A DNA stretch of 64,000 nt from Candidatus Methylobacter titanis (GTDB lineage: Bacteria; Pseudomonadota; Gammaproteobacteria; Methylococcales; Methylomonadaceae): assembly GCA_029946125.1 (NCBI GenBank), contig JAQSDX010000005.1, positions 1-64,000 on the forward strand. Reading direction: 5' to 3'. Shown in pieces: positions 276 through 61,836 of the stretch (positions are counted from its first letter, which is position 1; the number at the start of each line of letters is the position of its first letter). The notes beneath the pieces are model-generated. The model did no database searches. It had not been told where the DNA came from and saw only the letters and a list, made by a program, of their open reading frames with translations. Made by a program: the position numbers and the translations under genes.

Positions 276-550
276 TCAACATCGAAAGCCTGGGTAAAAA
301 TCAGGTAATGATGCCCACTGGCGGGAGCATAGAGAATGCATAGCTTCAGTATTGGCTTTTGGCATGATCAAGCCTGCGGTTTTGCTATTCTTAGGACATA
401 GGGTGCCAAAAATATAAGCCGCTGTAAATTGTTGCTGTTGAACAATACGGGGCGAGTGCCTTTTTGTGCCCAAATACGACTGACTGTCCGACGTTGTCCG
501 ACTAGCGCCTCATCTTGAAACCAGCCTCAACCGGCTTCACATCGATACCT
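276..550 (-). pseudogene. IS630-family transposase remnant, frameshifted
   Basis: Read on the minus strand, three short frames join into one recognisable IS630-type transposase segment. FQDEALVGQRRT followed by RIWAQKGTRP carries the DDE-domain 'QDEA..GQ' motif. After a one-base shift it continues as RIVQQQQFTAAYIFG and KTAGLIMPKANTEAM. A second shift lies just before FQDEA, where one T appears to be missing in the expected VEAWFQDEA. Only the middle of the catalytic domain is present; no terminal inverted repeats or start codon are seen. It is a dead relic. The boundaries are approximate. Confidence 0.6.
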
Positions 551-727
551 TTCGGTAGTAAGCGGTAGATGAAAACAAGTTATAGACTAATTCTCGTGTA
601 AATATTTTGGGATGGGTATAAGGTTTTTACCGTTGACAAAATTTTACCAACAGGGGGCTTATTTTGCTAAACAAATTTAAACAAATATCGAAGATAGTGG
701 GGCACTACCGAATTGAACCGCTTACAT

Positions 728-752
728 CCCCGCCCTGAACGGCGGGGTTTTT
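728..752. repeat. GC-rich hairpin, IS605-end-like or terminator
   Basis: CCCCGCC and GGCGGGG pair around a short loop, with five T's to the right on the plus strand. The T-run points away from phoU, whose stop is at 792 on the minus strand, so this is not a classical phoU terminator. Read on the minus strand it has the form CCCC..C.TTCAG...GGGGATGT, the same shape as the hairpin at 44345-44370, and resembles right ends of IS200/IS605-type elements. Either reading is possible. Confidence 0.45.
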
Positions 753-791
753 CGCTGCTTAGTGATAAAGGCGTTGCGCCGGAAATGGCTG

Positions 792-1508
792 TTACTGCTT
801 CATCTTCCTTTCCAGTTCTTCCTGGGTCAAATGTCGCACATCTTCGCCTTTGACCATATAAACTAAATGTTCGCAGACGTTACAGGCATGATCGCCGATT
901 CTTTCTAATGAACGGGCAATCCAAAGCACATCCAACATCCGGGTAATGTTTCTTGGGTCTTCCATCATCTTGGTAATCAACTGGCGGATGATACTGCCGT
1001 ATTCACGATCGACATTTTCATCCAAACCGGTAATTGTGGTCACGCCTTCTATGTTCATCCTGGCAAATACATCCAGCGCGCCGTGCAGCATTTCCTGAAC
1101 CAATTCGGCCATGTGTTCCAGTTCGTAATATTGGTCATGTTTGTTGCTGTCGGCTCCCGCCAATTGTATGGCCATCTCGGCGATGCGTTCGGCCATATCG
1201 CCGACGCGTTCAAGCTCATTAACCACTTTGATTACGGTAATTAACAATCTTAAATCGAATGCGGCAGGTTGCCTTAACGCTAAGATTTGCATGCATTCCT
1301 GATCGATAGCCATTTCCAGCGCATCGACCTGATTGTCTTGTTTGATGACCAGTTCGGCCATTTCCATATCGCCGGTTGCAAAAGCGCTAACGGCTAGCTC
1401 TATTTGCTGTTCAACCAGTCCGCCCATGGTTAAAACTTTGTTGCGTACATCTTCCAGCTCTTTATTGAACTGGCCTGATATGTGCTGTCCTATTTTGCTG
1501 TTGTCCAT
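792..1508 (-). CDS. phoU: Phosphate transport regulator PhoU
   Basis: PhoU is the negative regulator that links the Pst phosphate importer to the PhoR-PhoB two-component system. The 238-residue product has the normal length and the expected two repeats of three-helix bundles. The metal-binding E/D-rich signature appears as VNELERVGDMAERIAEMA in the first half and RSLERIGDHACNVCEHLVYM in the second. The gene is the last of pstSCAB-phoU and follows pstB by 13 bp. Nothing looks damaged. The assignment is firm. Confidence 0.96.
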   Translation of the reverse strand: MDNSKIGQHISGQFNKELEDVRNKVLTMGGLVEQQIELAVSAFATGDMEMAELVIKQDNQVDALEMAIDQECMQILALRQPAAFDLRLLITVIKVVNELERVGDMAERIAEMAIQLAGADSNKHDQYYELEHMAELVQEMLHGALDVFARMNIEGVTTITGLDENVDREYGSIIRQLITKMMEDPRNITRMLDVLWIARSLERIGDHACNVCEHLVYMVKGEDVRHLTQEELERKMKQ

Positions 1509-10004: not shown

Positions 10005-10337
10005 TCAGGTTAATGCCAGTTCATGCTCGTCTAATGCAGGTTCGGCTATAGTCGTTACATTGGCTATTTCAGCCTGTTGAGGTGCTCTCGGCATCCCGCT
10101 TCGCTGCTTTATGAAGTCGTCGGCAATTGCTCTCGGCAACTGCTCCATGCGTTGCTCTACCTCCTTCATCCATGGAGTCGTACCTCCTGCATCCGTGCAG
10201 TCGTCATTTTGTGTATACAAAAAACGCCTAATTTCAACGCTCAGCGCAACGTCAAAGTTGGCGCTAAATTCGTCGAGTTCGGTATCTTGTACCGGTAACA
10301 GTTGTTGTGCCTTGGCTGCAACCCAATTGATAATCAT
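10005..10337 (-). CDS. Small unknown protein carrying an in-frame repeat insert
   Basis: The 110-residue product has no family I recognise. It starts MIINWVAAKAQQLL and ends with an acidic, alanine-rich tail. Residues about 45-70 (CTDAGG...EVEQRMEQLPRA) are not native-looking: the DNA there (10131-10203) matches a dispersed repeat also present at 31123-31184 and 54750-54810. The insert keeps the frame open, so the protein would be made with about 24 foreign residues. Whether the gene is functional is unknown. Confidence 0.5.
   Translation of the reverse strand: MIINWVAAKAQQLLPVQDTELDEFSANFDVALSVEIRRFLYTQNDDCTDAGGTTPWMKEVEQRMEQLPRAIADDFIKQRSGMPRAPQQAEIANVTTIAEPALDEHELALT
10131..10203 (-). repeat. 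Dispersed repeat, family B copy 1, with a 23-bp partial duplication
   Basis: On the minus strand the segment reads ACGACTGCACGGATGCAG..., a short variant duplicate (ACGACTCCATGGATGAAG...), then GTAGAGCAACGCATGGAGC and AGTTGCCGAGA. The same order, without the duplication, occurs at 31123-31184 and 54750-54810. Internal pairings include CTGCA/TGCAG and GCAAC/GTTGC. This copy is embedded in a coding frame. Confidence 0.75.
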
Positions 10338-31097: not shown

Positions 31098-31184
31098 GAC
31101 ACGAAGAAAAAATGCCGTGTTTTTCGTGTCTCGGCAACTGCTCCCTGCGTTGCTCTACCTTCTGCATCCGTGCAGTCGTTCGCG
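31098..31184 (+). repeat. Dispersed repeat, family B copy 2
   Basis: GACACGAAG (31098-31106) is mirrored by TTTTCGTGTC (31121-31130), then the shared body TCTCGGCAACTGCTCC...TGCGTTGCTCTACC and TGCATCCGTGCAGTCGTTCG follows. The copy ends about 22 bp before the start codon of the large envelope gene, so it sits in its 5' leader. Confidence 0.75.
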
Positions 31185-39257: not shown

Positions 39258-40064
39258 ATGCAAACTCAATCATTAAACAACATTAACAGCACCTGCTCCC
39301 GGCAGGATGGTGGCATACACGCCGTCCCTGGCGATCGCCGCTCCTGTTCCCGACAGGATTACGGCATACACGCCGTCCCTGGCGATATAGTAACGGAAAA
39401 GCTGAGTAAATCGGTTATTACCTCCGATGGAATATTGCATATCTTGTCATCCATAGATTTGATAATCAAATCCGGTGAGAGTATTGCGATTGTCGGCGAG
39501 TCGGGTTCAGGTAAATCTACCTTAATCAGCCTGCTGGCCGGATTAGACACGCCAACTTCCGGATCCATCAGTTTGAACGGAAAATCATTAACCGCGATGA
39601 ACGAAGACGGTAGGGCGGCAATGCGCAATCAGCTGATTGGCTTTGTCTTCCAGTCTTTTCAATTGCTGCAAGGACTGACCGCACTGGAAAACGTGATGCT
39701 GCCTTTGGAATTAAGCGGCGATAAAAACGCCAACGCCTCGGCTACTGCATTATTGGATAGAGTCGGCTTGTCGCATCGTTTATCGCATACACCACAGAAA
39801 CTTTCCGGTGGCGAGCAGCAGCGTGTCGCATTGGCCAGAGCCTTTGTGACCAGGCCCTCGATTTTATTTGCCGATGAGCCGACCGGCAATCTTGATAGCA
39901 AAACCGGCGCGTGTATTGTTGATTTATTGTTCGAACTTAATCAGGAAAACAACACCACATTAATTCTGGTGACGCATGATCAGGCTTTGGCTGCACGTTG
40001 CCAACGCATTATTAAACTGGATGCAGGACGCATAGTGACAGTCACGTCCAATGAAAAAGCATAG
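39258..40064 (+). CDS. ybbA: ABC transporter ATP-binding protein YbbA with a repeat-encoded N-terminal insert
   Basis: A 268-residue MacB/LolD-type ATPase that partners the permease YbbP. Walker A GESGSGKST, signature LSGGEQQR, Walker B ILFADEPTGNLD and VTHDQ are all present. Compared with the family start, about 34 residues are extra near the N-terminus (about 11-44): CSRQDGGIHAVPGDRRS followed by CSRQDYGIHAVPGD. They are encoded by two tandem 51-bp copies of dispersed repeat A. The native frame resumes at IVTEKLSKSV. The ATPase core is intact, so the protein probably still works. Confidence 0.93.
   Translation: MQTQSLNNINSTCSRQDGGIHAVPGDRRSCSRQDYGIHAVPGDIVTEKLSKSVITSDGILHILSSIDLIIKSGESIAIVGESGSGKSTLISLLAGLDTPTSGSISLNGKSLTAMNEDGRAAMRNQLIGFVFQSFQLLQGLTALENVMLPLELSGDKNANASATALLDRVGLSHRLSHTPQKLSGGEQQRVALARAFVTRPSILFADEPTGNLDSKTGACIVDLLFELNQENNTTLILVTHDQALAARCQRIIKLDAGRIVTVTSNEKA
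39292..39386 (+). repeat. Dispersed repeat A, two tandem copies inside ybbA
   Basis: Each copy consists of a 15-nt hairpin and a conserved 24-bp motif. Stems: CCTGC-TCCCG-GCAGG (39292) and CCTGT-TCCCG-ACAGG (39343). Motif: GGCATACACGCCGTCCCTGG followed by CGAT, beginning at 39312 and 39363, exactly 51 bp apart. Stem bases change together between the copies (C-G to T-A), keeping the pairing. Same family as 57222-57317, 59245-59288 and 60851-60886. Confidence 0.85.
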
Positions 40065-54721: not shown

Positions 54722-54810
54722 GACACGAAGTTTTTACCTTGGATTTTCTTCGTGTCTCGGCAACTGCTCCATGCGTTGCTCTACCTCCTGCATCCATGCA
54801 AGTCGTTCGT
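54722..54810 (+). repeat. Dispersed repeat, family B copy 3
   Basis: GACACGAAG (54722-54730) and CTTCGTGTC (54749-54757) flank a short loop; the shared body TCTCGGCAACTGCTCC..TGCGTTGCTCTACC and TGCATCCATGCAAGTCGTTCG follows. It lies 12 bp before the argB stop codon (minus), in the DUF4124-argB convergent gap. It differs from the 31098 copy at only a few bases. Confidence 0.8.
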
Positions 54811-57210: not shown

Positions 57211-58268
57211 GCAACTCCCTTATCGCCAGGGATGGTGTGTATGCCACTAGCCGATAGGGAATCGGCGTGGCGATCGCCAGGGATGGTGTGTATGCCGCTA
57301 AACCTACCGGGAGCAGGTGCGGTTTGCATCGCCATGGCCATGATGGCCATGCGCACCGCGATGCCGTTGCTGACTTGTTTGAGTATTACCGACTGCGGGC
57401 CGTCCGCGACTTTGGAATCAATCTCTACGCCCCGGTTGATAGGACCTGGGTGCATCACGATAGCATCGGGTTTGGCGATTTTGAGTTTTTCTTCGGTCAG
57501 TCCGAAACACTTGAAATACTCGCTTTCGCTGGGCAGTAGCGCCGAACTCATGCGTTCTTTCTGCAAACGCAGCATCATCACCACATCAATATCTTTAAGC
57601 CCTTCGGTTAAATTATGCGAAACGTTCACGCCTAAACTTTCCACATGCGCGGGCAATAAGGTTTTGGGCGCAATCACTCTGACTTCGGCGGCACCCAGGG
57701 TATTTAATGCCTGGATCTCCGAGCGCGCCACTCGAGAATGCAATATATCGCCGATAATGGCGACTCTGAGGCTGGAAAAATCCGGTTTGAGCTGGCGTAT
57801 CGTAAACATGTCCAGCATCGCCTGCGTCGGGTGCGCGTGCTGCCCATCGCCGGCATTGATTACGCTGATATGCGACGCGGTTTGCTGGGCGATAAAATGC
57901 GCCGCGCCGCTGAGTGCATGGCGCACCACAAACATATCGACAAACATGGCTTCCAGATTGCGGATGGTGTCGAGCAGACTTTCGCCTTTTGACGTGGCCG
58001 AGGTGGCGATATTCATATTGATGACATCGGCGGACAGACGCGTCGCTGCCAATTCGAAGGTTGTTCGGGTGCGGGTACTGTTTTCAAAAAACAGATTGAC
58101 GATGGTTTTGCCGCGCAACAGCGGAACTTTTTTAACCTGGTGCTCCGACATCCCGGCGAATGACTCGGCAGTATCGAGAATTTCGGTTAATAAGCTCTTG
58201 CTCAGGCCTTCGATGGTCAAAAAATGTTTGAGCTTGCCTTCCGTATTTAATTGCAGGTTATCAGTCAT
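57207..58268 (-). CDS. pyrB: Aspartate carbamoyltransferase catalytic subunit with a repeat-encoded C-terminal tail
   Basis: PyrB condenses carbamoyl phosphate and aspartate. The 353-residue protein has the carbamoyl-phosphate motif [21 protein letters not shown] and the aspartate region in [21 protein letters not shown]. The conserved core ends near [12 protein letters not shown]; about 36 more residues follow, [17 protein letters not shown] and GIHTIPGDK, encoded by two copies of repeat A. The tail keeps the TGA/ATG overlap with pyrC' intact. Confidence 0.95.
57222..57317 (-). repeat. Dispersed repeat A, two tandem copies at the end of pyrB
   Basis: Minus-strand stems CCTGC-TCCCG-GTAGG (57317-57303) and CCGAT-TCCCT-ATCGG (57265-57251). 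The conserved motif GGCATACACACCATCCCTGG then CGAT occurs at 57296-57273 and 57245-57222, 51 bp apart. The second stem differs from the first at several bases yet pairs perfectly. Both copies are inside the coding frame. Confidence 0.85.
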
Positions 58269-59237: not shown

Positions 59238-59244
59238 AGTTTAT

Positions 59245-59288
59245 ATCGCCAGGGATGGTGTGTATGCCGCAAACCTGCCGGGAGCAGG
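59245..59288 (-). repeat. Dispersed repeat A, single intergenic copy
   Basis: Minus strand stem CCTGC-TCCCG-GCAGG (59288-59274), then GGCATACACACCATCCCTGG and CGAT (59268-59245). It sits between yqgE and ruvX, ending 7 bp before the ruvX start, where it may occupy the ribosome-binding region. Confidence 0.85.
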
Positions 59289-59355
59289 TGCGGCGTCTGG
59301 TTGGTATTCAAAGAAAGATTAGGCTGAAGGTCACAGGCAATACAGTTACCCAAAA

Positions 59356-60841: not shown

Positions 60842-60846
60842 TATCA

Positions 60847-61836
60847 TCATGGATGGTGTGTATGCCGCAAACCTGCCGGGAGCAGGTGCGGCAGCAGGAC
60901 GGTTTCAATATGGTCCATCAGTTGACCGCAAATATTCAAGCCAAACTGGCGATCCAGTTCCTGAACGCAAGTGGGACTGGTCACATTAATTTCGGTCAGC
61001 GTATCGCCAATCACATCGATCCCGACAAAAACCAGGCCTTTTTCCCGTAATGTAGGTCCGACCTGGCCCGCAATCCAGCGATCTCGCTCGGTGAGTTCCC
61101 GGCCTTCGGCCCGCCCGCCCGCCGCCAAATTGCCGCGGGTTTCGCCTTGTGCAGGGATGCGCGCCAGAGAGTAGGGTATGACCTCGCCATTAACCAGCAA
61201 TATCCGTTTATCGCCGTCTACAATTTGCGGCAGATACTTTTGCGCCATCACATAGCGACTGTTGTACTGGGTCATGGTTTCCAGAATCACGCTAAGATTG
61301 GGATCGTTTTGGCGCAAATGGAAAATAGAAGTACCGCCCATGCCATCCAGCGGTTTTAAAATAATTTCGCCTTGCTCCAGCAAAAAACGCCTGATTCTGG
61401 CTGGCTCTCTAGCGACTAAAGTCTCAGCGCAACACTGCGGAAACCATGCGGTAAAAAGCTTTTCATTGGCATCCCGCAACGACTGCGGTTTGTTAACCAC
61501 ATAAACACCCATACTTTCCGCGCGTTCCAGCAAATAGGTGGCATAAATATATTCCTGATCGAAAGGAGGGTCCTTGCGCATCATAATTACGTCCAGCTGA
61601 TCCAAAGGAATGTCCTGCTCGGCCGTAAACTCGTGCCAGCTTTTTTCATCTCGCTGAACTTTAATCGTTCGTGTTCTGGCATAAGCTCTGCCGTTTCTCA
61701 GGAATAAATCGTTGAGCTCCATATAATGCAGCTCCCAGCCTCGAGCCTGTGCTTCAAGTAACATTGCAAAACTGGTGTCTTTTTTTATGTTGATATGGTC
61801 TATGGAGTCCATGACCATGCCGAGTTTAATGGGCAT
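60847..61836 (-). CDS. gshB: Glutathione synthetase with a repeat-encoded C-terminus
   Basis: GshB joins gamma-glutamylcysteine and glycine with ATP. The 329-residue ATP-grasp protein shows IKLGMVMDSIDHINIKKDTS, the ATP-grasp segment LKPLDGMGGTSIFHL and GRAEGRELTERDRWIA. ATG 61836, with AGGA 9 bp upstream. The last residues, LLPAGLRHTHHP and stop, come from a repeat A copy (60851-60886), where the normal family C-terminus would continue or end differently. It precedes tonB by 5 bp. Confidence 0.94.
   Translation of the reverse strand: MPIKLGMVMDSIDHINIKKDTSFAMLLEAQARGWELHYMELNDLFLRNGRAYARTRTIKVQRDEKSWHEFTAEQDIPLDQLDVIMMRKDPPFDQEYIYATYLLERAESMGVYVVNKPQSLRDANEKLFTAWFPQCCAETLVAREPARIRRFLLEQGEIILKPLDGMGGTSIFHLRQNDPNLSVILETMTQYNSRYVMAQKYLPQIVDGDKRILLVNGEVIPYSLARIPAQGETRGNLAAGGRAEGRELTERDRWIAGQVGPTLREKGLVFVGIDVIGDTLTEINVTSPTCVQELDRQFGLNICGQLMDHIETVLLPHLLPAGLRHTHHP
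60851..60886 (-). repeat. Dispersed repeat A copy forming the end of gshB
   Basis: Minus strand stem CCTGC-TCCCG-GCAGG (60886-60872), then TTTGCGGCATACACACCATCC. The copy is cut short where the CCCTGGCGAT of the other copies would follow; instead ATGATGATAATG begins, supplying the gshB stop and tonB start. Same family as 39292, 57222 and 59245. Confidence 0.82.

Follow-up and report, generated by a model that had tools for sequence, protein, structure and literature searches.

The stretch of DNA analyzed in this work (the window, 64 kb) comes from Methylobacter, a genus of methane-eating bacteria, and carries a small gene whose open frame is interrupted by a dispersed element which we call repeat B, and two further copies of the element between genes. 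The window belongs to genome G000; the other genome in which copies were counted, Methylobacter tundripaludum SV96 (G019), is of the same genus. The features, with the evidence for them in brackets, are:

10005..10337, minus strand: small conserved protein gene adjoining lonB, 110 aa here and about 71 aa when uninterrupted (open frame, orthologues)
10181..10203, minus strand: 5' half of an outer element, the 23-bp hairpin half (sequence comparison of copies)
10133..10180, minus strand: complete 48-bp element lying within the outer one (such nesting is found in place in two other genes)
10120..10132, minus strand: 13-bp remnant of the outer element's 3' half (identical truncated end in purL of G000 and G007)
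10084..10119, minus strand: 36 additional bp of insert, within a 15-aa stretch that G015 lacks
31131..31178, minus strand: intergenic 48-bp copy of repeat B
54757..54805, minus strand: intergenic 49-bp copy of repeat B
31098..31130, no strand assigned: separate palindrome of GACACGAAG...CTTCGTGTC type, on one side only of the copy at 31131-31178
54722..54756, no strand assigned: separate GACACGAAG...CTTCGTGTC palindrome, on one side only of the copy at 54757-54805

A previous reading of the window, made from the sequence only, had placed repeat B at three sites, and all three were recovered with refined spans; a search allowing up to six substitutions gave these 3 matches, and five base-shuffled windows gave none even at 12. 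The in-gene copy is an 84-bp composite (23 + 48 + 13 bp) with 36 bp more, and it consists of one 48-bp element inside another that is truncated. The insert had been delimited as 10131-10203, and these bases do belong to it, but it is longer by the 13-bp remnant and the additional 36 bp. A partial duplication of about 23 bp had also been noted here; the 23-bp half is indeed present twice, but a 74-base query over both halves finds full or near-full matches at several other places in G000 and its relatives, and because the composite form recurs in this way a local duplication was rejected. At the two intergenic copies GACACGAAG and CTTCGTGTC had been taken for inverted flanks of the repeat, a description that has to be given up, since both arms form one palindrome lying on a single side of it. 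The two palindromes are related to each other and each directly adjoins its copy of repeat B. Another dispersed repeat (ATCGCCAGGGATGGTGTGTATGCC and its complement) occupies 39289-39386, 57221-57301, 59244-59305, and 60842-60903, at least partly at gene ends, and is probably the family that the sequence-only reading had listed first.

As had been claimed, the minus-strand frame at 10005-10337 stays open through the repeat without a stop. In 17 of 23 Methylobacter genomes the 110-aa protein was matched from its first residue on, and in the remaining six it was not. An uninterrupted homologue in relatives had been proposed as the check on the insertion and does exist: seven of the 17 orthologues, with 66-72 aa, are uninterrupted, and the other ten carry extra sequence at a single shared position, for a total of 91-138 aa. 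These ten inserts are more or less decayed, with repeat ends that can be recognized by eye, and in all of them the conserved C-terminus remains in frame; the 15-aa stretch missing from G015, the closest relative, includes 10084-10119. The protein has no match in a plasmid collection. It also has no Pfam or NCBIfam family, and the strict codon-usage test described below did not class the copy at 10131 as in-gene, two points that would suit a chance open frame in which nothing was interrupted. That explanation is already contradicted by the 17 orthologues, whose ends are conserved and which all keep the frame, and by the constraint on these ends (pN<pS in all 105 pairs from 15 orthologues, with G008 and G018 excluded), and we regard it as highly improbable. 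The comparison of orthologues supports the frame as a real gene with an in-frame insertion. On a nucleotide tree of UvrA and PurL (FastTree, 22 genomes, some weak forks), which was used because a LonB protein tree of 11 rows did not resolve the branching, carriers and non-carriers of the small-gene insert interleave, with at least five gains or losses when counted by hand. This may reflect recurrent insertion at the same site, repeated loss, or gene exchange.

On the minus strand repeat B consists of CGACTGCATGGATGCAGGAGGTA followed by GAGCAACGCATGGAGCAGTTGCCGA, 48 bp in total, which is also its usual length. The element is bipartite and GTAG-tagged: its 5' half is a hairpin (CGACTGCANGGATGCAGGAGGTA) and its other half an imperfect palindrome (GAGCAACGCANGGAGCAGTTGCCGA). 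Both halves are predicted to fold into hairpins as single-stranded DNA (z of about -5 against shuffles, for one copy), and 3 of the 13 pairs of paired positions show changes on both sides among 23 copies. The 3' half together with the preceding GGTAG is built like a GTAG-tagged REP that has a bulge of one base, and in the GGTAG ahead of this second palindrome the T and A are invariant and the G's at least 90% conserved in the 23 aligned copies. The repeat had been called dispersed and a genomic count proposed; a covariance model built from the 23 copies, with 150 candidates scored in each genome, gave 88 matches at E<=0.1 in G000, 65 of them good matches (E<1e-4), and for M. tundripaludum SV96 a minimum of 149 at E<=0.1. 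The two features which mark GTAG-tagged REPs, a stem-loop with GTAG or a close variant at one end and a high copy number mostly between genes, are thus both found, 182 of 207 copies failing the strict in-gene test. Most copies lack the inverted doublet that makes two REPs into a REPIN; neighboring inverted pairs less than 120 bp apart number one among 65 copies in G000 and two among 143 in G019. The orientation of repeat B relative to replication followed no consistent pattern in sampled stretches of G019 (GC skew), and the window had no Rfam match at gathering scores. Contigs whose titles name Sedimenticola, Thiohalomonas, Endozoicomonas, or tubeworm symbionts, many of which are metagenome assemblies, also contain the exact 32-base core of the element, in at least 117 stretches among the matches listed; viral contigs gave no exact match to this core.

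The mode of insertion was read from pairs of occupied and empty sites. In a cysN-like gene which is occupied in G000 and empty in G008 the difference is exactly 48 bp, without duplication; G000 has a second, uninterrupted cysN-like homologue, so the interrupted gene is not the sole copy. Among all DNA fetched there were 42 junction-distinct pairs with clean junctions, with net differences of 48 (32 pairs), 47 (5), 49 (3), 50 (1), and 67 bp (1), which are not 42 independent events since several share one host palindrome. None of 111 occupied/empty pairs showed a target duplication, although overlaps of up to 60 bases were allowed, and the duplication that characterizes a MITE of a DDE-type IS is accordingly absent from this set. 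Of the 161 well-aligned copies among 208, 117 have A and 26 have T immediately ahead of the element, and 137 have G immediately behind it. Repeat B therefore inserts as an exact unit of 48 or 47 bp, without target duplication, and prefers A (or T)|G. It also inserts into its own copies, which generates composites: in two genes the form is nested in G000 and single in G019, the difference being +48 bp at A|G. A frequent location of repeat B is the two-base loop of another dispersed palindrome (CGAAGCT-GG-AGCTTCG), which is filled at loci L263, L118, L393, L207, L283, and L379 and free of repeat B at L356, L116, L227, and L352.

Copies might also spread without any transposition, by homologous recombination, gene conversion, or exchange of gene segments among carrier strains. 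The carriers of the uvrA and purL inserts, like those of the small-gene insert, are scattered on the UvrA and PurL tree as gene exchange would have it, and the host palindrome shared by several of the empty/occupied pairs fits such a process as well. The exact 48-bp insertion is however also seen in a Sedimenticola pair whose flanks are unrelated to those of the cysN-like gene, and this, with the fixed target preference in 161 copies, calls for a defined insertion reaction; we therefore hold spread by recombination to be unlikely. Our preferred reading, to which we assign a probability of roughly 0.68, is that repeat B is a mobile element of REP type, GTAG-tagged and non-autonomous, that inserts exactly, in some cases in frame, and would be moved in trans. 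Insertion would be largely blind to genes, and selection would weed out copies with a frameshift or a stop, so that those remaining sit in tolerant loops; the gene at 10005-10337 would be one such case.

Copies inside genes were identified with a codon-usage model built from 33 ORFs of the window, whose 96% accuracy refers to the same sequence windows from which it was built. The strict class, defined by the same frame on both sides and one open frame through the element, holds 25 of 207 copies (12 of 64 in G000, where one further copy was dropped for poor alignment, and 13 of 143 in G019); four more in-gene copies are not cleanly open, one strict call (L393) lies in the dispersed palindrome and its frame may be misjudged, and the rule overlooks copies near gene ends, including the one at 10131. 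The strict test was passed by 6 of 12 composite forms and by 19 of 195 single forms. Lengths divisible by 3 are found in 24 of the 25 strict copies versus 74 of the 182 others (p = 7e-8), an excess which is close to built in, because a shared frame on the two sides is a condition of the class; what it shows is real insertion into older genes as opposed to chance frames. As proof of selection the count was rejected, being nearly true by definition, and the test by frame context gives a weaker result: where there is same-strand coding on both sides, contexts which include some gaps between neighboring genes, 29 of 50 copies keep the frame with one third expected (p = 0.0004), and this points to filtering by selection. 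In same-strand coding contexts of any frame there are 31 of 82 copies of 48 bp versus 12 of 70 of 47 bp (p = 0.006); the difference is seen in G019 alone (16 of 44 versus 9 of 61, p = 0.02) and not in G000 alone (15 of 38 versus 3 of 9). These data suggest that frame-shifting copies are purged by selection, an argument of moderate strength. The sequence-only reading had supposed a genome permissive to such insertions, with which neither the low share of strict in-gene copies nor the excess of kept frames agrees.

Because 48 bp is a whole number of codons, an insertion adds a short peptide without shifting the reading frame, and comparison with insert-free orthologues gives additions of 16 aa for the 48-bp form, 23 aa for a 69-bp variant, and 28 aa for the 84-bp composite. 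All 12 strict cases in G000 could be named, ten by Pfam (molybdopterin oxidoreductase, a CcmH/CycH-type protein, a CysN-like GTPase, Mfd, PhoR, a VWA protein, MutL, a transglycosylase, an NtrC-type regulator, and a STAS protein) and UvrA and PurL by solved homologues. The scan of G019 covered 9 genes holding 10 of its 13 strict copies and gave ATP-grasp (two copies), Mur ligase, glucosaminidase, pyridine nucleotide oxidoreductase, VWA, leucyl-tRNA synthetase, M3 peptidase, methyltransferase, and E1 dehydrogenase. UvrA carries the insert at a single site in 2 of 19 genomes (69-bp form in G000, 48-bp form in G010), and loop 1 of PurL in 3 of 21 (G000 and G007 with the 84-bp form, G003 with the 69-bp type); both have empty orthologues. 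Aligned to solved UvrA (2r6f) and PurL (4l78), the proteins show a break at the insert, and it falls between residues that are adjacent or nearly so. In loop 2 of PurL, viewed in 6 of 21 loci, repeat B is present in G006 and G007, and G019 and G003 have no insert. Other longer insertions occupy loop 1 in G001, G004, and G014, and that of G001 (L448), which is not repeat B, belongs to a frame of 1655 aa as against about 1300 in relatives. Loop 2 of G000 (L022, codons ~692-718) and of G021 (L446) holds a different, GC-rich palindromic insert, also in frame.

These inserts could have been retained for a function in the host protein or mRNA, as domesticated peptides or regulatory hairpins, beyond mere tolerance. 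The recurrence at the same site of uvrA and of purL in distant species would agree with this, as would the sense orientation of 21 strict in-gene copies versus 4 antisense (p = 0.0009); antisense peptides are, by eye, more hydrophobic, which would explain the bias without function, and given that the host proteins are functionally unrelated, that insert-free orthologues exist, and that the inserts vary and decay among the small-gene orthologues, we think retention for function quite improbable. A further possibility, which we hold doubtful but of some weight, is that repeat B is itself adapted to genes and would act as a Y1-moved source of insertions of 16 to 32 aa into essential proteins, at A|G sites. 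The forms of 48, 69, 84, and 96 bp are all whole numbers of codons, only one of the six frames of the 48-bp consensus contains a stop, and the element includes its own insertion target, by which composites would grow in codon-sized steps.

As a REP-type element repeat B belongs to a kind that is already known. GTAG-tagged REPs, in the parts available of the 2013 report of Di Nocera, De Gregorio, and Rocco (PMC3733652), likewise carry GTAG on a palindrome and occur in many dispersed copies, mostly outside genes, with some in frame within ORFs including uvrA. Repeat B differs from them as there described in its 48-bp unit of two different hairpin halves, its exact empty sites without duplication, and its nested composites; it may still correspond to one of the 24 families of that report. 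The Rickettsia palindromic elements (RPEs), as cited in PMC3733652, are also palindromic and lie in frame in functional protein genes. The likeness to RPEs drawn here is one of behavior, and the hosts differ, Methylobacter being a free-living gammaproteobacterium. RPEs and repeat B differ in element size as well. REPINs moved by RAYTs share with repeat B that they are short, non-autonomous GTAG palindromes (available parts of PMC3116915, PMC8049555, and PMC8266576), and repeat B departs from them in mostly lacking the inverted REP doublet and a consistent RAYT linkage. The REPIN model, in the part of PMC8049555 consulted, assumes that insertion destroys a gene, which in the case of repeat B it need not do. 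We found no description of the Methylobacter repeat B in the literature searched, which mostly did not extend to subscription journals, and what repeat B adds within that literature is a 48-bp unit in two parts, composites formed by nesting, and sites seen both empty and filled. A text search for the letters of the element brought up three papers, with titles concerning human SNPs, monocytes, and a Pseudomonas permease. A bacterial repeat has here entered UvrA, PurL, and CysN-like genes without breaking the frame, and Methylobacter supplies natural pairs of interrupted and uninterrupted proteins.

The spread of REPs is described as unresolved in the available sections of PMC3116915 and PMC8266576. 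The occupied/empty pairs of Methylobacter define the inserted unit, the target, and the absence of duplication, and a candidate enzyme is therefore testable against a defined product. At about even odds, a Y1/HUH transposase of RAYT kind would move repeat B in trans as single-stranded DNA. Such a mover fits because target duplication is absent and because the TnpAREP/RAYT enzymes studied cut at C|T (PMC8266576, part available), the complement of the A|G target of repeat B, but on the strand opposite to GTAG. Consistent linkage to RAYT genes was not found: repeat B lies near 2 of the 7 Y1_Tnp loci of G000 itself, a lone half of it was seen at 1 of 48 Y1 loci of relatives, and among named loci, which were chosen for holding repeat B, a Y1 homologue is also present in 5 of 117. 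In one contig titled Methylococcaceae bacterium (L126, ~470-1009, minus strand) repeat B is itself inserted in frame in a RAYT-type transposase gene, directly after the HUH motif.
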